NCBI GenBank assembly: GCA_028868695.1
Contig: JAGWTZ010000024.1
Span: forward strand, 1-41,238
Length of the DNA: 41,238 bases
DNA from: Alphaproteobacteria bacterium
GTDB lineage: Bacteria; Pseudomonadota; Alphaproteobacteria; Rhizobiales; Aestuariivirgaceae
Reading direction: 5' to 3'
This document shows positions 1,033 through 41,238 of this stretch, in pieces (the stretch's first letter is position 1; each line of letters starts with the position of its first letter). A program made the position numbers and the translations under genes. The notes under the pieces are model-generated. The model did not search any database, had not been told where the DNA came from, and was given only the letters and a program-made list of their open reading frames with translations.

Positions 1033-1335
1033 GAAACACTCTCAATCCGTCGGGCAAGGGCGCCAGTTGGCGGCGGCTTATAGCCATGCAACCCGGCGGC
1101 AGCAATAGTTGCAAAACATGACGATTTAAGGTTAGCCGGCGGCGATTCGGGGCTGCCCGCCAGCCGGGCCTGGCCGCCCGGCCCCCTGCCCCATGCAAGC
1201 CCCCGGCCAGCCGCCGCACGCGGCAGAAAACCGCCGGTTGTGCCGGAATGGCACAGCACAATCGCATCAGGCTTAACGCAATCTTAGAATTATCCAGCCA
1301 TTTTGAAACGATCGCGACGTGTGTGGATGTGTGAA
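1033..1335. promoter_or_regulatory. Divergent intergenic region dksA / lipoprotein, with a CtrA-like motif
   Basis: No gene is seen here. The region must contain promoters in both directions. A TTAA-N7-TTAG sequence at 1273-1287 differs by one base from the CtrA consensus TTAA-N7-TTAA and lies about 50 bp before the lipoprotein start. The middle (1140-1220) is very GC-rich with no clear hairpin pair. The regulatory assignment is inference only. Confidence 0.25.
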
Positions 1336-2667
1336 ATGCGTATTCTGTTTGGTTTGGCAATGGTAGTGACAGGCACCGCCCTTTCCGGCTGTGTCAGCAG
1401 CACGTTTGACAGCCTGTCGAGTTTGAGCACAAGTTGCACAACGAGCGTGACAGCGGTGAACTGCACCAGCCCAACGCCCAAACCCGCGACAGTGCCCACC
1501 ACCACCACGACCACGGGCCCGGGCACCACCACCACGGCCCCCACACAGAACACCGGCAACACCACCAGCCTCAGCACGGGTGACACCACCATTGCGCTGG
1601 AAGGCTCCACGGCCATCACCACCAACACCAATCCCGCACTTTCCAAGCTGGGCTTCACGCCAACCAACACGCCGGGCACTTCCAACCAGCAAATCTGGTT
1701 TGACACCAAGACCGCCAGCAACGGCGCGTGGCCTGTTTCAAAGCTGATGTCCTACAGCGACTATGGCACTTGCATCAATGATGGCGGGGCTGACCCGCTC
1801 AACCCCGGCCTTTGCAAAAATGGCACCGGCGGCCATGGCCTGGGCGGCAACTACAAGCTCTACCGCTACTATGACAAGGGCACCAAGATTGACGAGGAGC
1901 TACAGGTCTGGACCTGGGGCAACTCCTACGCCACCCAATATCGTGACGTGACGGCCAGCGGCACCGACCCGCAGCACCAGGCCTGGTCTTTCGGCGGCAA
2001 CTACACGCCCGTGGCCTCCATGCCCACCGCCGGCATCATGAACTATACCGGCCAATGGGGCGGCACCGCCAAGACCTCAAATTTCTATGATAACCTGACC
2101 ACCGGCACGGTGGGCCAGACCATGTCCTTCAACAACAACTGGCGCGTCTCCGGGACGTCTTCCCTGACCGCCAACTTCGGCACCGGCCAGTTTGCCGGCA
2201 CGCTCACGCCCTGGCTCTGGGAAGGCGTGAACAAGGACGGCAACTTCAGCCAGGTGGACGTGGCTGCCGCCCAGGCCTTCGCCGCGCAATGCGCCGTGAG
2301 CGCCCCGGCCTGCAACCCCGCCAGCCCCTCCTTCAACATGGCGCAATATAACAACCTCGCCAACTACAACGCCGCTTACATGAACGTGTCGGTGATCCTC
2401 GCCGGTTCCATCAAGACCGACGCCAAGAACACCACCAAGCCCAACCAAGTAGTGGGCACCGCCTCGATGGACCCGACCGCTGGCTGGATCACCTCGGCCA
2501 ACAACCCGATGTTCGCCGGCTTCTTCGGCCCGGCCGCCAAGGAAGTGACCGGTGCCTTCGCCTTTGACGCCACCATCCCGGCGCCGAATGGCGGCCTGAT
2601 CCCCATCAACAATGACCGCCGCGCCTATATCGAGATGAGCGGCATCTTCAACGCCACATCCCCCTGA
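1336..2667 (+). CDS. Surface-lipoprotein candidate with TbpB-like C-terminal motif
   Basis: The 443-residue product begins with a short hydrophobic signal and a lipobox L16-S17-G18-C19, so it is predicted to be cleaved and lipidated at C19. A Thr/Pro-rich linker (about residues 45-85) follows, then a Gly/Asn/Thr/aromatic-rich, probably beta-rich body. Near the C-terminus GFFGPAAKEVTGAF (about 395-408) resembles the closing strand motif of TbpB/factor-H-binding-protein barrels (G-F-x-G-P-x-A-x-E-x-x-G-x-F). The gene lies 8 nt before a Slam-type gene, and Slam clients typically sit next to their Slam. ATG 1336 was chosen because it gives a clean signal peptide; ATG 1327 or TTG 1303 would add a charged extension. 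The ligand is unknown: binding of metal, haem or a host factor is possible but not shown. Confidence 0.72.
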   Translation: MRILFGLAMVVTGTALSGCVSSTFDSLSSLSTSCTTSVTAVNCTSPTPKPATVPTTTTTTGPGTTTTAPTQNTGNTTSLSTGDTTIALEGSTAITTNTNPALSKLGFTPTNTPGTSNQQIWFDTKTASNGAWPVSKLMSYSDYGTCINDGGADPLNPGLCKNGTGGHGLGGNYKLYRYYDKGTKIDEELQVWTWGNSYATQYRDVTASGTDPQHQAWSFGGNYTPVASMPTAGIMNYTGQWGGTAKTSNFYDNLTTGTVGQTMSFNNNWRVSGTSSLTANFGTGQFAGTLTPWLWEGVNKDGNFSQVDVAAAQAFAAQCAVSAPACNPASPSFNMAQYNNLANYNAAYMNVSVILAGSIKTDAKNTTKPNQVVGTASMDPTAGWITSANNPMFAGFFGPAAKEVTGAFAFDATIPAPNGGLIPINNDRRAYIEMSGIFNATSP

Positions 2668-2675
2668 GGCCTGGC

Positions 2676-4085
2676 TTGCTGAAACCGGGGTTCATCAAAC
2701 TGCAGTTCGGGCGCAACGTCTCTTGCGCCCTTCTTGCGCTTGTGGCGGCCACGGGGCTTTTTGCCGCCGCCCCGGCACTGGCCGACCCGCCGATGAACCA
2801 GCAGGAGTATGACAAGTTCTCCGCTTCGGATGAAAACCAGCGCGTCCACATCCTGATCAAGCTGGCGCAGGCCGGTTTTGCCGACACCGCGGAAATGCTG
2901 TTGCGCAAGTTCCCCCTGCAGGGGCCCAATGCCGCCAACCGCACGCTTTTCATTGAAGGGCTGATTCTCGAAAAGCGCGGCCACCTTTCCGATGCCGCCG
3001 CGAAATTCCGCACCGCCTTGGGCAATGACCCGCGCCTGACGCTGGTGCGCATCGAACTGGCCCAGGTTCTGGCAAGGCTCGATGACACCGATGCCGCCAA
3101 GCATCACCTGCGCCTGCTTGAGGCCGAGGCGCAGGACGCCCAGCAGGCGGCTGGCATTCGCTCCTTCATCGACAGCCTGGATGCTCACCACCCGCTCACT
3201 TTCTCAGGCTTCATCTCGCTCGCCCCCAGCACCAACATCAACCAGGGCTCTTCACACTCCACCATGTGTTCGCCCGGCGTGGCGGGTGTGCTCGGCGTGG
3301 GCTGCACCGGCGACATCGCCCCCTCCAGCCAGAAGACCAGCGGCATCGGCATCATGGGTGGTGCCAATATCGGTTACCGCCGCCATATCGGCGACCATTT
3401 CGAGGCGGTGCTGGCCGGCGGCGCCACCGGCGCCATCTATCCCAGCATCAACGCCACCAGCCTGGGCTTCAGCCAATCGGCCGAGCTGCGCTATGACCTG
3501 CCGGATGGCTATGTCGGCTTTGGCGGCGTCGGCACCCAGGCCATGGACCCCGTGCAGGTCTCGATGTCCTACAACAGCTATGGCCCGCGCGTGTCCTTCG
3601 CCAAGCTGATCTCTCCGCAGAACCAGCTGAGCGGCAGCGCGCTCTATGAATGGCGCCACTATCCGCAGAGCCCCACCTCGGAAGGCACGGCGCTGCAGAT
3701 CACCGCCGTTCTCACCCACGCCATTGACCAGACCGCCAATGTGGCGCTGATCACCGGCTATGAAAACGTCAACCAGCAGCTCTCCTTCAACTCCTACCAG
3801 GACGCCACCATCGGCTTCGGCTTCTACAAGGAATTGAGCCACGGCTTCACCGTTCAGGGCCAGGCCACGGCGCGCTTCGCCGGCTTCAAGGACATCAACC
3901 CCTTCCAGGCCTATGCCCGCATGGACCAGAACTACACCGGCTCCATCACCCTGACCAAGCGTGACTGGAACTGGGTGGGCTTTGCGCCCTCGCTGAACTA
4001 CACCTACACCCGCAATGTCTCGAACATGGCGCTCTATGACTTTGACAGCCACAGCCTGGATTTCCGCCTCACCAAGGAATTCTGA
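2676..4085 (+). CDS. Slam-type surface lipoprotein assembly modifier (DUF560)
   Basis: A predicted outer-membrane protein that moves lipoproteins to the cell surface. The 469-residue product has a signal peptide ending ALA (about residue 36), an alpha-helical TPR-like domain (about 45-165, with EGLILEKRGHLSDAA and IELAQVLARLDDT repeats), and a long stretch of alternating polar/aromatic strands beginning LTFSGFISLAPSTNIN (about 170) and ending in a terminal Phe, the usual barrel insertion signal. This is the domain order of neisserial Slam. Translation probably starts at TTG 2676 with GAGG upstream; the next ATG would remove the signal peptide. It almost certainly shares a transcript with the lipoprotein gene, its likely client. 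Confidence 0.8.
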   Translation: MLKPGFIKLQFGRNVSCALLALVAATGLFAAAPALADPPMNQQEYDKFSASDENQRVHILIKLAQAGFADTAEMLLRKFPLQGPNAANRTLFIEGLILEKRGHLSDAAAKFRTALGNDPRLTLVRIELAQVLARLDDTDAAKHHLRLLEAEAQDAQQAAGIRSFIDSLDAHHPLTFSGFISLAPSTNINQGSSHSTMCSPGVAGVLGVGCTGDIAPSSQKTSGIGIMGGANIGYRRHIGDHFEAVLAGGATGAIYPSINATSLGFSQSAELRYDLPDGYVGFGGVGTQAMDPVQVSMSYNSYGPRVSFAKLISPQNQLSGSALYEWRHYPQSPTSEGTALQITAVLTHAIDQTANVALITGYENVNQQLSFNSYQDATIGFGFYKELSHGFTVQGQATARFAGFKDINPFQAYARMDQNYTGSITLTKRDWNWVGFAPSLNYTYTRNVSNMALYDFDSHSLDFRLTKEF

Positions 4086-4139: not shown

Positions 4140-5000
4140 ATGCGCTTCAAATCCGGCAAGGACTTCAGGAATCTCGGCTCAAAATCGGTGACGGTTCTGG
4201 GCATGTCTGGCGTGGGCAAGACCACGCTTGCGGCCCTGCTTCAGCAGGAAAGCTGGTTCCAGTATTCGGTCGATTACCGCATCGGCACCAAATACATGGA
4301 CGAGGCGATCTCCGACAACTTCAAGCGCGAGGCGATGAAGGTGCCATTCCTGCGTGACCTGTTGCGCAAGGATTCGATCTACATCCGCTCCAACATCACT
4401 TTCGACAACCTTGCCCCCCTTTCCACCTATCTCGGCAAGCCCGGCAGCGAGGGCAAGGGCGGCATCACCTTTGCCGAATACAAGAAGCGCCAGAACCAGC
4501 ACCGCGACGCCGAGATCCACTCGCTGCTCGACGTGCCCTTCTTCATGGAGCGGGCACGCGACATCTATGGCTACCAGAACTTCATTTGCGATTCAGGCGG
4601 CTCGCTCTGCGAGGTGGTGGACCCGGACAACGCCAATGACCCGGTTCTGAAATGCCTCTCCGAGAACACCCTGCTGCTCTACATCGAAGGCACGCCGGAA
4701 CACACCAAGATGCTGGTGGAGCGTTTCCGCAAGAACCCCAAGCCGATGTATTACCAGCCCGCCTTCCTTGAGGCGAAATGGGCCGAATACAAGCAGCTGA
4801 ACGCCATCAAGCATGACAGCGATGTGGACCCCGACGGCTTTGCCGTGTGGGGCTTTGAGCAGCTGCTGCACCACCGAATGCCGCTCTACCGCAAGATCGC
4901 GCAGAATTTCGGTTACCAGATTCACATGGGCGCGGTGCCTGCCGTCAAATCCGAAGCGGATTTCGCAGACCTCATCGCCGCCACCATCGACAAAGCCTGA
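4140..5000 (+). CDS. P-loop ATPase of unknown role, paired with metA
   Basis: A 286-residue soluble protein with a Walker A motif GMSGVGKT at residues 21-28 preceded by a beta strand (SVTVL). Further on it has [10 protein letters not shown] (about 155) and a hydrophobic strand LLLYIEG (about 178) that could be a Walker B-like or nucleoside-kinase core strand. I recognise it only as a P-loop NTPase/kinase-like protein; no substrate can be named. The stop is 5 nt before the metA start, so the two are co-transcribed and probably translationally linked, which points to methionine or homoserine metabolism or its regulation. No Shine-Dalgarno sequence is obvious before ATG 4140. Confidence 0.7.
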
Positions 5001-12075: not shown

Positions 12076-15000
12076 ATGGCAAAACAACCAACCGACAACC
12101 GCCGCCGCGGCAGGATTCCGTCTTTGGACGCCCCCGCGCCCGAAGCGGCCGCCGAAGCGCCGCAGCCGCAGCTGCGCTCCAAGCCCGCCAATGAGAATGA
12201 TCCGGGCACGGCCATGATGCTGTCGCGCCTGCGCCGCCCGCCCTCCTATGACGTGATCTGGGCCTCGGCCATCCTGTCCGGCATATGGGCCGCGGGCTGG
12301 TTCTGGGTTTACAAGGATGTCTTCGCCAACCAGCCCAACACCACGGCGGCGGAATTCCTGCAGGCGCTTGCCCTGTTGTTCCTGCCGGTGCTCGGCATGC
12401 TGTCGATCGCCTATTTCCAGTGGCGCGCCCAACAGCTGCGCCAGGTGTCGGAAGTGCTGATGCATCAGGCCATGCGCCTGATCCGCCCGCAGGACATCGC
12501 CACCGATGGCCTTTCCTCCATCGCCCAGGCCGTGCGCCAGGAAGTGGACTTGCTGGTGGGTGGCGTTGAACACGCCTTCCAGCGCGCCACCGCGCTTGAG
12601 GAAATCGTGCACAAGGAAATCGCCGCCGTTGAGCGCGCCTTTGGCAGCAACGAAGACCGCATCCACAGCCTGGTGAACGGGCTGGAAACCCAGCGCGCCG
12701 CCCTGCAGCAAACCTCCAGCCTGGTCAGCGCCGACGCGCAGCCGATGCTGCAGCGCCTTGAATCCAACACCCAGAACCTAGGCCAGGTGGTCAACATGGC
12801 GCTTTCCACCTTTGGCCGACTTGAGGACGGCCTGAAGAATTCCACCGGCGAACTGGCCCGCACCATCGAGGAAGTCTCGCAGCGCGCCGCCGAAACCGGC
12901 CAGGAAATCAGCGGCCACTCGGCCCAGTTCGAACGCATGTCCACCATGCTGGTGGGCGATTTCCGCAACTTCTCCACCCAGCTTCAGGACCATATCCAGA
13001 CGCTGAACTTCACCGCCAACACGCTGGGCACTGAAACCCGCAAGTTCGGCACTGAAGTGAAGGGCATGGAAACAACGCTGGTGCAGCTGCTGCGCCAGAG
13101 CTCTGACCAGCTGGTCAGCGCCCATTCCGAAGTGGCCCAGACGGTTGAACGCGTCACCGGCCACGCCACCAACAGCGCCAAGCAGACCGCCAATGAACTG
13201 CTGCAGACCTTCGGCCAGATCGGCGAGACCATCTCCTATCAGTTGAAGACAACCTCGTCTGACACCGCCGGCCTCATCGAACGCACCGGCCTTGAAACCG
13301 CCAGCCGCATTGAACAGGCCCACGCGCTGGTTTCAAACGGCCTGCAGAACGCCGCCACCGACTACGTGCAGCGCCTGACCCAGGCCCGCAACGAGCTTTC
13401 CAACCACGTTGACCAATCCACCGGCAAGATGATGACCGACTTTGAAGCCTCGGCCATGCGCTTCAATGACCGCTTCCTGCAAACCGGCAACCAGCTGGTT
13501 TCCAGCCTCGATCAATCAAGCAACAACCTGGTGGCCCAGCTTGGCGCCTCGGGCTCCGGCCTGATGGGCAGCATCCAGGCTTCGGCGGAGCGCTATGCCG
13601 CGTCACTGACCGATGCCTCCGCCCTGCTCAACGAAACCGCCGAGACTGCCGCCGCCAACTTGAGCCGCACCACGGCCAATTCATCGAAGGCCGTCATTGA
13701 GGCGCTGGCCGAGCATTCGGCCCATATCAGCGCCACATCGGATGCAGCCGCCAAGGCTGTCAACCAGGCCTCGGCCGAGCATGCCCAGAGCATTCAGGGC
13801 GCGCTGCATGAGGCCGCTGGCCGCATGACCTCCACCGCCGACGAGCTTGCCGCGAAGATGACCCAGTCTTCCGCCTATCTCGCGCAGAACATGCAGGCCA
13901 CGCTGACCGAGCAGGCCGACCGGCTGCACGGCACCGCCGAGCAGCTCAATGCCCAGGTGGGCCGCACCTCGGCGCTGGTCTCGCAGAATCTCGAGAATGT
14001 CGGCGCCAATGTGAATGACCTGCTGGTCGCCACCAGCGGCACCATTGCCGCGCATTTGAAGGAAACCTCGGAAATCGTCAGCCGCCAGATGCAGGACTCG
14101 GGCCTTGCCCTGGCCCAGAACATCGAAAGCTCCGGCGGCAACGTCACCGACCGCCTGATCAGCATCTCGGGCGAGTTCATGCAGAAATTCGCCTCCACGC
14201 GCGATGGCCTGCTGACCTCGTTCCTCGGCGCCTCGGGTGATCTCACCTCGAAGCTGCAAGACACATCGGCCACCGTTTACAGCCGCCTGCAGCGCGCCGC
14301 GGATGATGTTTCCGCACAGCTTGAAAGCGTCAACGCCCAGATCATCGAGAAGCTTGACGGCACGGTGGGCCACTCCTCCGACCGCATCGCCGCGGTGACC
14401 GAAGGCCTGACCACCAAGCTCGACACCTCCTCCACACAGCTGGGCAGCCTGTTGGCCGCCACCGAGCGCCGCCTCGGCAACCAGCTTGAGCAGGCCTCGA
14501 CCGAGCTTGAAGCGCTGTTCAATGAAAACACCCGCATGCTGACGCAGCAGCTGGAGCAAAGCTCCAACACCGTCACCACCTCCTTTGCGGAAACCGCGGT
14601 TCTCGCCGCCCAGAAGCTGGACACCGCTGGCGCCGACGTGACCAGCAAGATCGACACCTCCAGCCAGGCCATGTTCAGCCGCCTGCATGGCACCACACAG
14701 GAACTGGGCAAGCGCTTTGACGTGGCCACCGAGCACCTTGAGCTTGTGACCACCGAAATCTCCAAGCGCCTTGATGGCCAGGGCAAGCGCTTTGTCGAAA
14801 TCCTCGACCAGGCCTCGGGCCAGATCTTCAACGACCTTGGCAAGGCGCGCGATGCCTTCTCCGAAGGCCTGGGCGAAACCACGCTGCAGATTTCCGGCCG
14901 CTTCGAGCAGGAAACCGGGCTGCTGGTGGGCCGCATCGACAAGGCCGTGGCCGAGTTCGACAGCGCCGCCACCTCCTCCAGCGGCAAGCTGGACGAGGCC

Positions 15001-16269
15001 GCCGACAAGTTCGCCAAGCATGTGGCCAACACCAACAGCTATCTCACCAACCAGCTGGCCGCCGCCGCAGGCGACATCGACACCCGCCTCGAAAGCGTGT
15101 CGATGCAGCTGACCGGCAAGCTCGAGATGACGGGCAGCCGCATTTCCGAGCGGCTGGATGATGTCTCGGCGCTGGTCGACAAATCCATCGACAAGTTCAA
15201 CCTTGAAATGGAGCACATGCTGCAAAGCCGGCGTGATGCGCTGGAAAGCCTGGTGGCCGACGCCAACCGCCGCGCCGGCGAGGTGGACAAGACCATGAAC
15301 GCCTATATTGCCATGATCGAGGAAAGCCTTGGTGCCGCCGAAAGCCGCGCCCAGCACATCGGCCGCCTGGTCTCGGACCAAAGCTCCGCCGCGCTGGCCC
15401 GCCTCGAGGAAGAGCTGCGCAAGCTTGAAACCAGTTCGACAGGCCAGGTGGCCCAGGCCGCCCGCGCCCTGCGCGAGCAGCATGAGCGCGCGCTGGCCAA
15501 CATGAATGAGATGCTGTCTTCCACGGCGTCCGACTTCCAGCAGACCGCGCAGGACATGCGCATCACCGCCCAGCAGGTGGTGAAGGACATTGACGCCGCG
15601 CGCGGCGAGTTGAAGCGCGCCGTCGTTGACCTGCCGGAGGAAACCCGCAGCAATGCCGACAACATGCGCCGCGTGGTGGCTGACCAGATCAGCGCCCTCA
15701 ACGCGCTGGCCGAAGTGGTGCGGAAGCAGACGGGCTCGCTCGATTATTCGGGCCCCGGCTTCATGCAGCCGCCGCGCGCCGCGCCGGCCGCCCGCTTTGA
15801 GCCGGCCTATGAAGCCCCGGCCCCGGTGCGCGCGCCTTCCGCCGCCCCGGCACTGGCGCGCGAACCGGCACCAGCCTCCAGCGCCAAGCTCGCCAGCCTG
15901 GCCAAGGAAGTGGAAACCTACAACGCCAAGCTCAACACCTCGGCCCGCGATGTGGTGGAGGCCATTGAGGGCCAGCTGCCACGCGATCTCGAGAAGCGCT
16001 ATGTGGCCTCCGACAAGTCGGTCTACACCCAGCGCCTCTATGAAAGCCGCAGCCGCAAGCTGATCAAGGCGCTGGAAGGCCGCTACGCCGAAGAGCGCCT
16101 GCTGCGCAGCCGCATTCAGGCCTACAATCGCCTGTTTGAAAAGCTGCTGGACTCGGTGTCCGAGACCGACGGCAGTGAGCAGGTGATGGAGCAGGTTCTC
16201 GCCTCCGAACAGGGCCGCATCTATGTGATGCTGGCCGAAGTGGCCGGCCGCCTGCCCAGCCAGAATTGA
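12076..16269 (+). CDS. GPR/RgsE-like growth-pole ring protein, giant apolipoprotein-like coiled coil
   Basis: A 1397-residue membrane-anchored protein. A basic, Pro/Ala-rich N-terminus precedes two transmembrane helices (about 58-78 and 94-114). About 1,100 residues of continuous amphipathic helix follow (about 120-1215), rich in Ala, Gln, Ser and Thr, with repeated units such as L-x-x-T-S-x-x-V-x-x-x-L, i.e. an apolipoprotein A1/E-like coiled-coil rod. After a Pro/Ala linker (about 1225-1275) comes a compact helical C-terminal domain (about 1290-1397). This architecture matches the large apolipoprotein-like proteins that form a ring at the growing pole of Agrobacterium (GPR) and Sinorhizobium (RgsE), though those are longer (about 2,100 residues). 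The assignment rests on architecture, not alignment. A terminator follows at 16297. Confidence 0.65.
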   Translation: MAKQPTDNRRRGRIPSLDAPAPEAAAEAPQPQLRSKPANENDPGTAMMLSRLRRPPSYDVIWASAILSGIWAAGWFWVYKDVFANQPNTTAAEFLQALALLFLPVLGMLSIAYFQWRAQQLRQVSEVLMHQAMRLIRPQDIATDGLSSIAQAVRQEVDLLVGGVEHAFQRATALEEIVHKEIAAVERAFGSNEDRIHSLVNGLETQRAALQQTSSLVSADAQPMLQRLESNTQNLGQVVNMALSTFGRLEDGLKNSTGELARTIEEVSQRAAETGQEISGHSAQFERMSTMLVGDFRNFSTQLQDHIQTLNFTANTLGTETRKFGTEVKGMETTLVQLLRQSSDQLVSAHSEVAQTVERVTGHATNSAKQTANELLQTFGQIGETISYQLKTTSSDTAGLIERTGLETASRIEQAHALVSNGLQNAATDYVQRLTQARNELSNHVDQSTGKMMTDFEASAMRFNDRFLQTGNQLVSSLDQSSNNLVAQLGASGSGLMGSIQASAERYAASLTDASALLNETAETAAANLSRTTANSSKAVIEALAEHSAHISATSDAAAKAVNQASAEHAQSIQGALHEAAGRMTSTADELAAKMTQSSAYLAQNMQATLTEQADRLHGTAEQLNAQVGRTSALVSQNLENVGANVNDLLVATSGTIAAHLKETSEIVSRQMQDSGLALAQNIESSGGNVTDRLISISGEFMQKFASTRDGLLTSFLGASGDLTSKLQDTSATVYSRLQRAADDVSAQLESVNAQIIEKLDGTVGHSSDRIAAVTEGLTTKLDTSSTQLGSLLAATERRLGNQLEQASTELEALFNENTRMLTQQLEQSSNTVTTSFAETAVLAAQKLDTAGADVTSKIDTSSQAMFSRLHGTTQELGKRFDVATEHLELVTTEISKRLDGQGKRFVEILDQASGQIFNDLGKARDAFSEGLGETTLQISGRFEQETGLLVGRIDKAVAEFDSAATSSSGKLDEAADKFAKHVANTNSYLTNQLAAAAGDIDTRLESVSMQLTGKLEMTGSRISERLDDVSALVDKSIDKFNLEMEHMLQSRRDALESLVADANRRAGEVDKTMNAYIAMIEESLGAAESRAQHIGRLVSDQSSAALARLEEELRKLETSSTGQVAQAARALREQHERALANMNEMLSSTASDFQQTAQDMRITAQQVVKDIDAARGELKRAVVDLPEETRSNADNMRRVVADQISALNALAEVVRKQTGSLDYSGPGFMQPPRAAPAARFEPAYEAPAPVRAPSAAPALAREPAPASSAKLASLAKEVETYNAKLNTSARDVVEAIEGQLPRDLEKRYVASDKSVYTQRLYESRSRKLIKALEGRYAEERLLRSRIQAYNRLFEKLLDSVSETDGSEQVMEQVLASEQGRIYVMLAEVAGRLPSQN

Positions 16270-37544: not shown

Positions 37545-37799
37545 TTAGCCTCCCGGCACCCGCAGCATCAGGTAAATCTCCGCGCCTTCCGGCAGCGGCG
37601 TGTCCCACTGGTCACGGTAGATCTTGCCATTGATGGAAACCGCCACGCCGCGTTTGATGTGCGGCTCCATGCCGGGATATTGCTCCGAAAGCTTGCGGAA
37701 CAGCTCACGTATCGTGCCGGCCTGCATGGAAATGGAAGGGGCGCCGCCGGCATGTGGCCGCAGCGCCCCCCAGAGATGGACTTCGTGTGTTGCGTTCAC
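37545..37799 (-). CDS. MoaD/ThiS-like sulfur carrier protein
   Basis: An 84-residue beta-grasp (ubiquitin-like) protein ending in VPGG, the C-terminal Gly-Gly that is adenylated and thiocarboxylated in sulfur carriers. Other landmarks are the first strand EVHLWGALRPHAGG, the helix IRELFRKLSEQYPG (about 30-43) and the strand VAVSINGKIYRDQ followed by LPEGAEIYLMLRV. Its GTG start overlaps the stop of the molybdoenzyme large subunit (GTGA), so it is made with it. It may supply sulfur for the molybdopterin dithiolene or for the terminal sulfido ligand of the enzyme; a dedicated E1-like activator is not in the window. Confidence 0.8.
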   Translation of the reverse strand: MNATHEVHLWGALRPHAGGAPSISMQAGTIRELFRKLSEQYPGMEPHIKRGVAVSINGKIYRDQWDTPLPEGAEIYLMLRVPGG

Positions 37800-40129
37800 T
37801 TCGCCTTCGACTTGATCGACTTCAGCACGCGCGGCGGGCTCATCGGAACATGCGTCTGGCGCACGCCCGTGGCGTTGGTGACGGCAATGCCAAGGGCGGC
37901 CAGCGGCGGAACAATGGAAGTCTCGCCCACGCCGCGCACACCATAGGGATGGTTCGGATTGGGGATTTCCAGGATCTGCGTGTCAATCATCGGCAGGTCG
38001 GAGCACACCGGAATGCGGTAATCGAGGAAGCCCGCGTTCTGCAGCCGACCATCCTTGCCATACACATACTCCTCATTCAGCGCCCAGCCGATGCCTTGCG
38101 CGGCACCGCCCTGGAACTGGCCTTCAACGTAAGAAGGATGCAGCGCCTTGCCGGCGTCCTGGATCACGGTATAGCGCTTCACCAGGCTGCGGCCGGTTTC
38201 CGGATCGGTCTCCACGTCGGCGATATGCGTGGCGAAGGAAACGCCAGCGCCATCGGCCGTGATTTCGGCATGGCCAGCGACAGGCCCGCCGGTGTTGCCG
38301 GCCTGGGCTGCGATTTCCTTCAGCGTCAGCGGCGGGCGGTTGCCATGGTGCACGCCCTTGGCATGGGCCGCGCCATCCTTCCACTCCACTTCACCGACAG
38401 GGATTTCCCACGTCTTGGCGGCGCGCTCACGCAGCACCTTGATGGCGTTGCGTGTGGCGAAGATCGCGGCCATGGACGACGAGAAGGTGCCGCGGCTGCC
38501 ATCCGTCATGTCATTGTGGCCCAAGGTGGCGGTGTCCGCCACGTTGCTGCGCACGCTTTCATACGGCAGGCCCAGCTCTTCGGCCACGGCCATGGCGATG
38601 GAAGCGCGCGAACCGCCTACGTCCACCGTGCCCTGGGCCACATTGACGAAGCCGTCGGGCGTCACGTTCACGTCGACGCAGGTCTGGCCACCAAAGTTGA
38701 ACCAGAAGCCGCAAGCCATGCCGCGGCCCTGGTTCTTGCCCAGGGGCGCCTTCATGTGCGGATGGTTCTTGGCGGCGGCCAGCGTCGGGCCAATGCCGAT
38801 CGGGCCATAGACCGGGCCATAGGAAGACTTGGTGCCTTCCTTGGCCGCGTTCTTGATGCGGAAATCAACCGGGTCCATGCCGATGGCCTTGGCCAGCTCA
38901 TCCACCGCGCTTTCAACGGCGAAAGCCGCGATGGGCGAAGAAGGCGCGCGGTAGGCCGCGGTCTTGGGGCGGTTGACGATCACATCCTTGGAAACCGTCT
39001 TGACGTTCTTCAGGTCATAGCAGGCAAAGGCCGTCATGGCGCCCAGTTCGGCCCACATGCCGGGGAAGGCGCCGCCATGGAACCGCAGTTCGGCAAAGGC
39101 GGCGGTGATGGTGCCATCCTTCTTGGCGCCGATCTTCACATCCATCGAGGCGGAAGAGGTCGGCCCCGTGCAACGGAACACTTCTTCGCGCGTCATGGTG
39201 ATCTTGACGGGCCGGTTGGCCTTGCGCGACAGCGCCAGCGCCAGCGGCTCAACCCACAGATGGGTCTTGCCGCCAAAGCCGCCGCCGATCTCGGAAGACG
39301 TGGTGCGCAGCTTGCTGGCTTCCATGCCGAGCAACTGGGCGCACTGGTTGCGGAACACGAAATGGCCCTGCGTGCACATCCACATCTCCGCCATGCCATC
39401 GGGAGAGACGGAGGCGGAAACCGAATGCGGCTCGATATAGCCTTGGTGCGTCTGCTCGGTCTTGTAGGAGCGGCTGATCACCACATCCGCATCGCGGAAA
39501 CCGGCATCAACATCGCCATGGCCATATTCGGCGCGCTTGCACCAGTTGGAGGGCTTGGTGGGCTTGGGTTCAACGCCTTCGGTGAACACATTGTCGTGGA
39601 TCAGCGGGGCGCCAGGCTTCAGGGCCTCATCTACATCGGTGACATGCGGGAGCAACTTGTACTTCACGTCAATGAGCTTCAGCGCCTTGCGGGCGGTTGC
39701 GGCATCAACGGCAGCGACGGCGGCCACGGCGTGGCCATCATACAGCGCCTTCTTGCGGGCCATGCAGTTTTCGAGAATGTCGAACATGTTCCGGTCCCCG
39801 CCGGTGTGGTCCGGCAGATCGGCAGAGGTGATCACCGCCTTCACGCCCGGCAGCTTTTCGGCCTTGGACGTGTCGATCTTCACAATCTCCGCATGGGCAT
39901 GCGGCGAGCGCAGCACCAGGCCCACCAATTGGCCGGGGAAGTTGAAGTCGGCGCCATAGCGGGCGCGGCCCGTCACCTTGTCAATGCCGTCCGGGCGGCG
40001 GGGGCGCGAGCCGATAACCTTGAAATCACGCTTCACAAGGTCCGAGTTATGGGTGCCGTTCACATGCGGCTCGCTTGTGGTGGGTGCTGCTGCTTCCGAC
40101 GGGTTGTTGTTTTCGTTGAGAGTGACCAT
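37796..40129 (-). CDS. Molybdenum hydroxylase, molybdopterin-binding large subunit (xanthine dehydrogenase family)
   Basis: A 777-residue catalytic subunit of a cytoplasmic molybdenum-cofactor hydroxylase. An acidic/Asn-rich N-terminus precedes the a/b hammerhead domain (RPDGIDKVTGRARYGADF, about 45-62). Cofactor landmarks are EIGGGFGGKTHLW (about 280-292), the QGTVDVGGSRASIAMAVAEELG region (about 505-526) and the catalytic glutamate in GVRGVGETSIVPP (about 738-750). The active-site loop reads AYRAPSSP (about 397-404), not the AYxCSFR of form I CO dehydrogenase nor AYxGAGR of form II, so it is not a CO dehydrogenase; the substrate is probably an N-heterocycle or aldehyde. It lies between the Fe-S subunit (3-nt gap) and the sulfur carrier gene (4-nt overlap). 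Confidence 0.93.
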   Translation of the reverse strand: MVTLNENNNPSEAAAPTTSEPHVNGTHNSDLVKRDFKVIGSRPRRPDGIDKVTGRARYGADFNFPGQLVGLVLRSPHAHAEIVKIDTSKAEKLPGVKAVITSADLPDHTGGDRNMFDILENCMARKKALYDGHAVAAVAAVDAATARKALKLIDVKYKLLPHVTDVDEALKPGAPLIHDNVFTEGVEPKPTKPSNWCKRAEYGHGDVDAGFRDADVVISRSYKTEQTHQGYIEPHSVSASVSPDGMAEMWMCTQGHFVFRNQCAQLLGMEASKLRTTSSEIGGGFGGKTHLWVEPLALALSRKANRPVKITMTREEVFRCTGPTSSASMDVKIGAKKDGTITAAFAELRFHGGAFPGMWAELGAMTAFACYDLKNVKTVSKDVIVNRPKTAAYRAPSSPIAAFAVESAVDELAKAIGMDPVDFRIKNAAKEGTKSSYGPVYGPIGIGPTLAAAKNHPHMKAPLGKNQGRGMACGFWFNFGGQTCVDVNVTPDGFVNVAQGTVDVGGSRASIAMAVAEELGLPYESVRSNVADTATLGHNDMTDGSRGTFSSSMAAIFATRNAIKVLRERAAKTWEIPVGEVEWKDGAAHAKGVHHGNRPPLTLKEIAAQAGNTGGPVAGHAEITADGAGVSFATHIADVETDPETGRSLVKRYTVIQDAGKALHPSYVEGQFQGGAAQGIGWALNEEYVYGKDGRLQNAGFLDYRIPVCSDLPMIDTQILEIPNPNHPYGVRGVGETSIVPPLAALGIAVTNATGVRQTHVPMSPPRVLKSIKSKAK

Positions 40130-40132
40130 GGC

Positions 40133-40606
40133 TTAGGCTCCGCGCATTTCTTTGGCTGCGGCCTGGACGGCGCGCACGATCTTGTCATAGCCGGTGCAGC
40201 GGCAGAGATTGCCAGCAAGGCCAAACCGGATTTCCTCTTCCGTCGGGTCGGGGTTCTTGCGCAGCAGCGCATCGGCCGCCATCAGGAAGCCCGGCGTGCA
40301 CACGCCGCATTGCAGGGCGGCATGGTCGATGAAGGCCTGCTGCAGCGGGTGCAACTTTTGGCCTTCGGCCATGCCTTCAATGGTTTCCACCTTCTTGCCA
40401 TTCATTTCCGCACCCAGCACAAGGCAGGAGCAGACGAGACGGCCATCAAGGATCACCGAGCAAGCGCCGCAATCGCCCGTGCCGCAGCCTTCCTTGGCGC
40501 CGGTGAGGCCCAGGCGGTTGCGCAGCACATCCAGCAGCACTTCACCCTCATCGCAGGTGAATTCCACCGCATCGCCATTGACAGTCGTTTTGACGAGAAC
40601 ACCCAT
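40133..40606 (-). CDS. Molybdenum hydroxylase [2Fe-2S] subunit
   Basis: A 157-residue electron-transfer subunit with two [2Fe-2S] clusters. The plant-type N-terminal cluster is C41-C46-C49-C61 (GCGTGDCGACS ... SC; C59 is extra), and the second cluster is C100-x2-C103 ... C135-x-C137 (LQCGVCTPGF, NLCRCTGYDKIV). The order is that of CoxS/XdhA small subunits. It passes electrons from the molybdenum centre to the FAD subunit encoded just upstream (2-nt gap). Confidence 0.96.
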   Translation of the reverse strand: MGVLVKTTVNGDAVEFTCDEGEVLLDVLRNRLGLTGAKEGCGTGDCGACSVILDGRLVCSCLVLGAEMNGKKVETIEGMAEGQKLHPLQQAFIDHAALQCGVCTPGFLMAADALLRKNPDPTEEEIRFGLAGNLCRCTGYDKIVRAVQAAAKEMRGA

Positions 40607-40608
40607 TA

Positions 40609-41238
40609 TTATTTTCCTCCGGCGCGGGCATAGGCAGTTTCAGCAGCGCGGCGGGCAAGAACGCCAGCCACTTCGGTGCGGAACTCAACAGTGCCGCGCT
40701 TGTCATCAATCGGTTTGCAGGCGGCCGAACAGGCGGCAGCCAGCTTGGCCTTGGCGGCTTCATCGAGCTTGGTGCCGATGATCGCCTTGGCGGCGTCCTT
40801 CACCAGCACGGCGGTGACGGCGACAGCCCCCAGCGCCACGCGGGCCTTGGTGATCACGCCCTTGGCGTCAATCGTCAGGTTCACGCCACAGGAGACAACC
40901 GCGATGTCCATTTCGGTGCGCGGAATGAAGCGCAGATAGGCATCGCCCGAACGCGCTTCCTTCTTCGGCAGTTCAATGGCGGTGATCAGTTCACCCTTCT
41001 TCAGGTTGGTGCGGCCAACGCCGGCCGGCACATCTTCAATCGCCAGCTTGCGCGTGCCCTTGGGGCCGGTGATGACAGCCTTGGCACCTGCAGCAATCAT
41101 GCCCGGCACGCTGTCCGCTGCGGGCGAGGCATTGCACAGGTTGCCCGCCATGGTGCAGCGGCCCTGCACCTGCTTGGAGCCGATGAGCTGCGCGCCCTCG
41201 ACCACGCCGGGCCAGGCCTTGAGCAATTCCTTGTTCTC
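40609..41238 (-). CDS. Molybdenum hydroxylase FAD-binding subunit (partial at window end)
   Basis: Only the C-terminal 209 residues are inside the window; the start lies beyond 41238. Visible are the FAD-domain segment GRCTMAGNLCNASPAADSVPGMIA, typical of CoxM/XdhB subunits (T-x-G-G-N/G-N-L-x-x-x-S-P-x-x-D), and the C-terminal CO-dehydrogenase flavoprotein domain (RFIPRTEMDIAVVSCGVNLTID, KARVALGAVAVTAV). It donates electrons from FADH2 to NAD+ or another acceptor. It is the first known gene of the molybdoenzyme operon; anything upstream, such as further maturation factors, is out of view. Confidence 0.93.
   Translation of the reverse strand, partial: ENKELLKAWPGVVEGAQLIGSKQVQGRCTMAGNLCNASPAADSVPGMIAAGAKAVITGPKGTRKLAIEDVPAGVGRTNLKKGELITAIELPKKEARSGDAYLRFIPRTEMDIAVVSCGVNLTIDAKGVITKARVALGAVAVTAVLVKDAAKAIIGTKLDEAAKAKLAAACSAACKPIDDKRGTVEFRTEVAGVLARRAAETAYARAGGK

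Follow-up and report, generated by a model that had tools for sequence, protein, structure and literature searches.

Here we describe a two-gene locus near the start of a 41,238-nucleotide stretch of alphaproteobacterial DNA (contig JAGWTZ010000024.1, Aestuariivirgaceae; the whole stretch is hereafter called the window), in which a lipoprotein gene (open reading frame (ORF) 1336-2667) is followed by a gene for an outer-membrane exporter (ORF 2676-4085). Judged from profile matches and structure models, the pair very probably forms a type 11 secretion system (T11SS), or Slam, unit, by which the lipoprotein would be displayed at the cell surface. The experimentally verified Slam/T11SS exporters of a 2025 survey all fall in one animal-associated cluster (PMC12282271, excerpt); in the nine other clusters, where aquatic and soil organisms abound, no protein had been characterised by 2021 (PMC8406197). 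Among the papers listed by our literature search there was no study of this machinery for the lineage of the window, which is thought to be free-living (PMC8555084, excerpt). A compact pair in a free-living-type lineage with no detectable TonB-dependent receptor offers a clean test case for Slam machinery outside hosts, and an element upstream of the pair supplies a concrete candidate regulator, CtrA. If true, a CtrA-timed and receptor-free reading would separate Slam machinery from its best-known role in nutrient piracy.

Exporter and lipoprotein

An earlier note, made from the sequence alone, had taken the second gene for a Slam/DUF560 exporter consisting of tetratricopeptide repeats (TPR) plus a beta-barrel, and both parts of this description held. 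The SlipAM/DUF560 profile (PF04575) matched residues 176-469 far over its cut-off (Table 1), and this is the sole SlipAM match in a genome of 3,093,592 bases that is 99.67% complete. The reading frame opens at TTG 2676, its first in-frame start codon, 8 nucleotides (nt) past the lipoprotein stop. In the structure model, built from a 15-sequence alignment (mean predicted local distance difference test (pLDDT) 83.6, predicted template-modelling score (pTM) 0.73), helices at residues 42-171 are followed by strands at 174-468, of which we count 14 when the short strands 196-199 and 210-213 are left out. The fold matches listed for the exporter are general outer-membrane barrels, with porins such as OmpG near the top and FadL also present, together with PelB and BcsC, which are exopolysaccharide and cellulose exporters. 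A search of Protein Data Bank (PDB) sequences with the exporter alignment gave 17 matches at E<=1, all within the TPR part; to judge from their titles, most are TPR-repeat proteins or designed helical ones.

The lipoprotein begins with MRILFGLAMVVTGTALSGC and has, by eye, a lipobox LSGC at residues 16-19 that ends in Cys19. Met1, Arg2, Leu16 and Cys19 are invariant in all 12 sequences of alignment A2 (the window and 11 relatives), and a lipobox-type match occurs in all 17 lipoprotein sequences listed. A Thr/Pro-rich spacer follows the lipobox and an AGFFGP...GAF motif lies close to the C-terminus, so that the lipobox, the linker, the closing motif GFFGP...GAF and, from the ORF coordinates, the 8-nt intergenic gap are all as the earlier note described them. 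The Pfam domain TbpB_B_D (PF01298) was matched at 34 bits (cut-off 26), and at E<=0.01 by all 12 aligned lipoproteins, and FHBP_C by only one of the 12.

The lipoprotein model (12-sequence alignment; mean pLDDT 70.4, pTM 0.72) predicts one handle (residues 83-221) and one C-terminal barrel (234-441), to which we assign eight strands, leaving out the short strand 304-308. Foldseek comparison of this model with the PDB returned 1113 matches at E<=10 and 76 at E<=0.001 (best E 7.9e-09); the best 50 of the 76 are all fHbp, TbpB or hemophilin/HphA by title, and among the matches listed fHbp ranks first, followed by TbpB and hemophilin. These three are known cargo of Slam machinery. Of the two outcomes that the earlier note had named as refuting its reading, a missing Slam match and a predicted lipoprotein fold lacking an 8-stranded C-terminal barrel, neither was obtained. 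The term TbpB-like, under which the lipoprotein had been introduced, is nevertheless inexact: the model speaks against the two-lobe TbpB architecture and for a single handle-barrel lobe, and the best fold match listed is fHbp. All 12 aligned lipoproteins also have two Cys within the spacer, soon after the lipidated Cys19, and a disulfide in this otherwise disordered stretch is possible.

By analogy with the family, the precursor would be exported by Sec and lipidated at Cys19; the lipidated protein would then be moved to the outer membrane, where the exporter may recognise its C-terminal barrel and flip it to the cell surface, with the spacer as a tether. Surface display itself we infer from family membership.

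When set beside known T11SS/Slam systems (SlipAM, DUF560, PF04575), the pair shares the SlipAM barrel, the N-terminal TPR helices and the adjoining TbpB_B_D lipoprotein, and differs in its Hyphomicrobiales-type genome and in having no detected TonB receptor. TbpB of Neisseria and Pasteurellaceae, which is exporter-dependent according to the literature, has lipidation and the TbpB_B_D barrel in common with the lipoprotein, but consists of two handle-barrel lobes in place of one and has a TbpA-type receptor, of which none was detected here. Neisseria fHbp, likewise exporter-dependent (PMC8406197), supplies the best fold matches and is also a lipoprotein with a C-terminal barrel, whereas the lipoprotein here exceeds it in length and carries a Thr/Pro or Gly/Ser spacer, and FHBP_C is largely missing from its alignment. 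A handle plus C-terminal barrel is shared with hemophilin/HphA and with cargo classes described in an excerpt of PMC12282271, in which the classes "haemophilin-like 2" and "disordered N-terminus 1" are mostly lipidated, the latter with a long disordered N-terminus, and the class "Sphingomonas surface protein" carries Pro-Thr repeats. Hemophilin is soluble (signal peptidase I), unlike the lipobox protein here, which also has no conserved histidine, and the Sphingomonas class has several barrels against one here, in a comparison by class description. The cargo of marine cluster 3 (Rhodobacteraceae/Roseobacteraceae; same excerpt) is alphaproteobacterial and lipidated with a single C-terminal 8-stranded barrel, and TonB receptors are rare near its T11SS loci, so that TonB-poor loci have precedent; the DUF1194, thymidylate synthase and glyoxalase genes of that locus were not seen here, in a comparison by description only.

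Occurrence and genomic site of the pair

Among the 37 genomes of the genus, the exporter was matched in 19, the lipoprotein in 19 and both in 18. In 17 of these 18 the genes are adjacent, in the same order and on the same strand, with several exporters truncated where the contig stops; in the eighteenth (G026) the two genes lie at separate contig ends. The pair is therefore not a chance arrangement, and the two-gene unit proposed in the earlier note is borne out by this adjacency. One further genome has the exporter only, at a contig start (G010), and another the lipoprotein only, at a contig end (G032). In G009, which is 66% complete, both genes are split into two frames (L057, 2429-5086), through either sequencing error or decay. 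Exporter identity is 39-62% even inside the genus.

Outside the genus, only one (G041) of 24 genomes from the rest of the order (61 searched in all) was matched, weakly and in the TPR part of the exporter. A SlipAM match was found in 21 of 297 genomes sampled across the order, four of them from this genus, and by this measure the spread of the family is patchy. Inspection of 21 loci from this search, restricted to plus-strand ORFs, placed the exporter on the plus strand in 11, and in nine of these a lipoprotein-like or barrel-motif ORF stands just upstream (by eye). A profile scan of contigs with the exporter alignment returned 19 loci, and a scan with the single exporter sequence confirmed nothing. 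Most of the 19 matched records are metagenome assemblies with Hyphomicrobiales, Rhizobiales or Alphaproteobacteria in their titles, in agreement with the rhizobia-like alphaproteobacterium first suspected; one each is titled Aestuariivirga sp., Hyphomicrobiaceae, Proteobacteria and Sphingomonas sediminicola (the last a complete genome).

Within the genus, the pair occupies one constant position, dksA-pair-P-loop-metA. Across the 20 loci compared, the upstream neighbour is dksA (opposite strand) in 17, while on the downstream side the P-loop gene is present in 16 and metA in 15; most of the missing neighbours fall at contig ends. In 13 of the 18 loci with the lipoprotein, but not in the window, a gene that we label FAD-oxidoreductase-like from its sequence lies between dksA and the pair. 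The empty site could be read in 15 of the 17 pair-less genomes (G013 has no P-loop match and G035 a partial match only), and in all 15 the P-loop gene and metA adjoin with no pair, the FAD gene (13) or dksA (2) lying directly upstream; dksA, the P-loop gene, metA and ycjX persist where the pair is gone. In nine of these loci (L106-L108, L110-L113, L116, L118) a second, diverged FAD-oxidoreductase-like match stands beside the first, at 24-26% identity. The P-loop protein (window 4140-5000), next to metA with or without the pair, has no Pfam match over the cut-off.

In a tree of the three flanking genes on the downstream side (30 of the 37 genomes, midpoint root only), 11 pair-bearing genomes form a group without any pair-less member (support 0.86), 12 pair-less genomes form another (support 0.997) and the other seven are mixed, which fits inheritance with losses; gains are also possible. 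Relative to the window protein, the lipoprotein shows a median identity of 39% (12 sequences) and the exporter one of 46% (14), whereas the values for the neighbours are 84% (dksA, 11), 75% (P-loop protein, 14), 73% (metA, 14) and 68% (ycjX, 13). The pair evolves faster than its neighbours, as expected for surface proteins. Inside the lipoprotein, mean pairwise identity is lowest in the spacer (29%) and in the loop 299-352 (24%), and rises to 57% in the handle core 172-224, the best conserved region computed.

Several results count against the assignment of the pair to the Slam family. The NCBIfam equivalog slam_lipo (NF041636), which covers a single named subgroup and not the entire cargo class, scored 25.3 bits on the lipoprotein (cut-off 80), and phmmer against PDB sequences gave a chance match only (E 8.8). 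The lipoprotein model is only fair by its mean pLDDT, and for the matches listed the TM-score is 0.23-0.31 when normalised by query length and 0.20-0.58 when normalised by target length, at large root-mean-square deviations. On the exporter, TPR_Slam (PF24575) stayed under its cut-off (29.2 vs 35.2 bits), as did TPR_19 (22.4 vs 25 bits), so that by profile alone the TPR domain is only suggestive. Finally, three exporter loci outside the genus have no recognisable lipoprotein upstream: L134 and L145, within 357 and 582 nt, and L077, within its available DNA.

Promoter element and candidate roles

In all 17 upstream regions compared, namely the window and 16 relatives (from the 19 genomes with a lipoprotein match, G009 with its broken frames and G026 with its two contigs being omitted), the lipoprotein ATG is preceded, at a distance of 61-65 nt, by an element TTAAC-N6-TTA. 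This element holds the longest fully conserved column run in the upstream alignment, single conserved columns occurring elsewhere. In all 15 pair-less loci it is missing from the 250-nt stretch upstream of the P-loop gene, and it therefore accompanies the pair; three extra-genus loci (L072, L074, L127), scanned briefly, showed no such element.

In its spacing and its first half-site the element agrees with the consensus for CtrA binding, TTAA-N7-TTAA (PMC9437464, excerpt). CtrA is encoded in the genome (NCBIfam 421.9 bits, cut-off 350), which also contains 36 perfect consensus sites vs 20 for the reversed pattern, and a tighter form of the element, TTAACNNAANNTTAG, occurs twice genome-wide, once at this promoter. 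Flanks were inspected for 15 of the 36 perfect sites, nine nearby genes being scanned per library; these include gcrA (over the Pfam and under the NCBIfam cut-off), a Tad/Flp pilus-type gene and a histidine kinase, with perfect sites ~145 nt before gcrA and ~140 nt before the pilus-type gene. From these sequence matches we regard CtrA control of the pair as evenly poised. The element may instead be a promoter or the site of another regulator, with no CtrA control, to which we give a little under an even chance. The second half-site, which is TTAG (15) or TTAT (2) and never the consensus TTAA, departs from the CtrA consensus in all 17 regions and counts against our proposal; the spacer is partly conserved too, which CtrA binding is not known to need; and most of the scanned genes near perfect sites (RpoD, HU/IHF-like, PLD-like, SDR and three without a match) are uninformative. 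Against this stand the spacing and the first half-site, the CtrA gene itself and the perfect sites before gcrA and the pilus-type gene. In the open-licence literature, which leaves most subscription papers outside its scope, no paper joining a CtrA regulator with T11SS was recognised by title among those listed; one paper (PMC5481527) contains both CtrA and the term surface lipoprotein. An inverted repeat at 1239-1255 is a weak operator candidate, its arms being perfect only in the window, L044, L045 and L059 (L044 and L045 are close relatives) and imperfect in the other 13 regions.

Neither PF00593 nor PF07715 detected a TonB-dependent receptor in the genome (99.67% complete), whereas each profile gave matches in three of the 14 controls, namely E. 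coli, Caulobacter and Bacteroides. The Plug domain (PF07715) is matched in 10 of the 37 genus genomes and absent from 27; with 6/20 matches among genomes that have one or both pair genes and 4/17 among those without, receptor and pair show no association in the genus (Fisher p=0.72). No receptor and no transporter gene was seen among the conserved neighbours of the pair. In known systems 120 of 185 lipoprotein-bearing clusters also contain a TonB-dependent receptor gene (PMC5449769, excerpt), and several T11SS cargoes pass nutrients to such receptors (PMC12282271, excerpt). Though known cargo often pairs with a receptor, a capture-and-hand-over scheme is unlikely here because none was detected.

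We prefer a surface-binding or coating role over iron or heme feeding on three grounds: no TonB receptor was detected, a CtrA-box-like element stands in the promoter, and genes for motility and the cell surface are frequent among CtrA targets. The displayed lipoprotein would be a binding or coating protein, made under cell-cycle control, by which the cell adheres to particles, glycans or other cells. The excerpt of PMC9437464 lists motility and chemotaxis among CtrA-linked functions. A known system of comparable build is NilC of Xenorhabdus nematophila, a lipoprotein with a C-terminal 8-stranded barrel, NilB as its partner and a proposed role in glycan adhesion (PMC9100927, excerpt); NilC is host-associated, and the likeness is by description only. 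The adhesion or coating role is our own guess, held tentatively at somewhat under an even chance. The suggestion of the earlier note that the ligand is unlikely to be a host protein gains some plausibility from the free-living lineage (PMC8555084, excerpt) and from the null searches for TonB receptors. The full combination, in which free-living bacteria would switch on a surface adhesin or coat through CtrA, in time with the cell cycle and without any TonB-dependent receptor, is doubtful as a whole, at about one chance in four.

Among other roles, the lipoprotein might concentrate a small ligand (a metal, a vitamin or a sugar), which would then be taken up by way of porins and an ABC transporter. 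This is consistent with the negative TonB receptor searches, and the conserved handle core could serve as a binding face, but with no transporter gene among the conserved neighbours, and with dksA, the P-loop gene, metA and ycjX staying when the pair is gone, we think it rather unlikely. Alternatively, the lipoprotein might remain on the periplasmic face while the SlipAM protein displays another cargo. Its surface exposure is only predicted, and in the relatives at L066 (2785-4056) and L070 (3598-4842) an Asp, an inner-membrane retention signal in E. coli, directly follows the lipidated Cys. The adjacency of the genes and the likeness of the C-terminal barrel to known cargo make this improbable, as does a six-frame PF01298 search of the genus, in which all 13 matches (in 13 of the 37 genomes) fall inside the pair's lipoprotein gene and no second TbpB_B_D protein appears outside the pair's site, although the search missed the window's own gene and is insensitive. 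Nutrient piracy in the manner of TbpB or hemophilin, in which a captured iron source is handed to a TonB-dependent receptor, is documented for several T11SS cargoes (excerpts of PMC12282271 and PMC5449769) and would suit the fold matches to TbpB and hemophilin, but it is highly improbable here, given the null PF00593 and PF07715 searches to which controls responded, the missing Plug match in 14 of the 20 genus genomes with one or both pair genes, the conserved neighbours without a receptor and the missing common histidine.

Hemophilin heme is bound by a coordinating histidine. Heme ligation through a conserved histidine appears unlikely for the lipoprotein, since no histidine is common to the 12 aligned sequences and L068 has none at all; other ligands are possible.

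Feature coordinates and other parts of the window

Coordinates of the features of the pair and of its promoter region are collected in Table 1.

Table 1. Predicted features of the lipoprotein-exporter pair and its upstream region (window positions).
Feature	Position	Strand	Basis or remark
Inverted repeat TGTGCC-N5-GGCACA, possible operator (weak)	1239..1255	.	perfect 6-bp arms in 4/17 upstream regions
CtrA-box-like element TTAACGCAATCTTAG	1273..1287	+	63 nt before lipoprotein ATG
Surface lipoprotein, presumed T11SS/Slam cargo	1336..2667	+	443 aa; lipobox LSGC; PF01298; fold matches fHbp/TbpB/hemophilin
Signal peptide and lipidated Cys19 codon	1336..1392	+	by eye
Disordered Thr/Pro spacer, Cys pair at 34 and 43	1393..1560	+	residues 20-75; pLDDT <50 for residues 1-70
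Handle/pedestal beta domain	1582..1998	+	residues 83-221; model strands
C-terminal barrel, eight main strands in model	2035..2658	+	residues 234-441; PF01298 best stretch 366-413
Predicted Slam/T11SS outer-membrane translocon	2676..4085	+	469 aa; PF04575 84.6 bits, cut-off 22
Predicted periplasmic TPR domain of exporter	2799..3188	+	residues 42-171; model helices
Predicted 14-stranded outer-membrane barrel of exporter	3195..4079	+	residues 174-468; 14 main model strands

Elsewhere in the window, positions 230-360 look intergenic and contain, by eye, the near-palindromic halves tccatcggcgggctt and aagcccgcccatgga; an Rfam search of the window at gathering scores, this region included, gave no match. 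ORF 37754-40633 (959 aa) has no Pfam match at E<=1e-6 and is overlapped by a 777-aa ORF on the other strand. ORF 12076-16269 (1397 aa) matches Apolipoprotein A1/A4/E repeats at 114.9 bits (cut-off 90), and its product is probably a very long amphipathic-helix or coiled protein.

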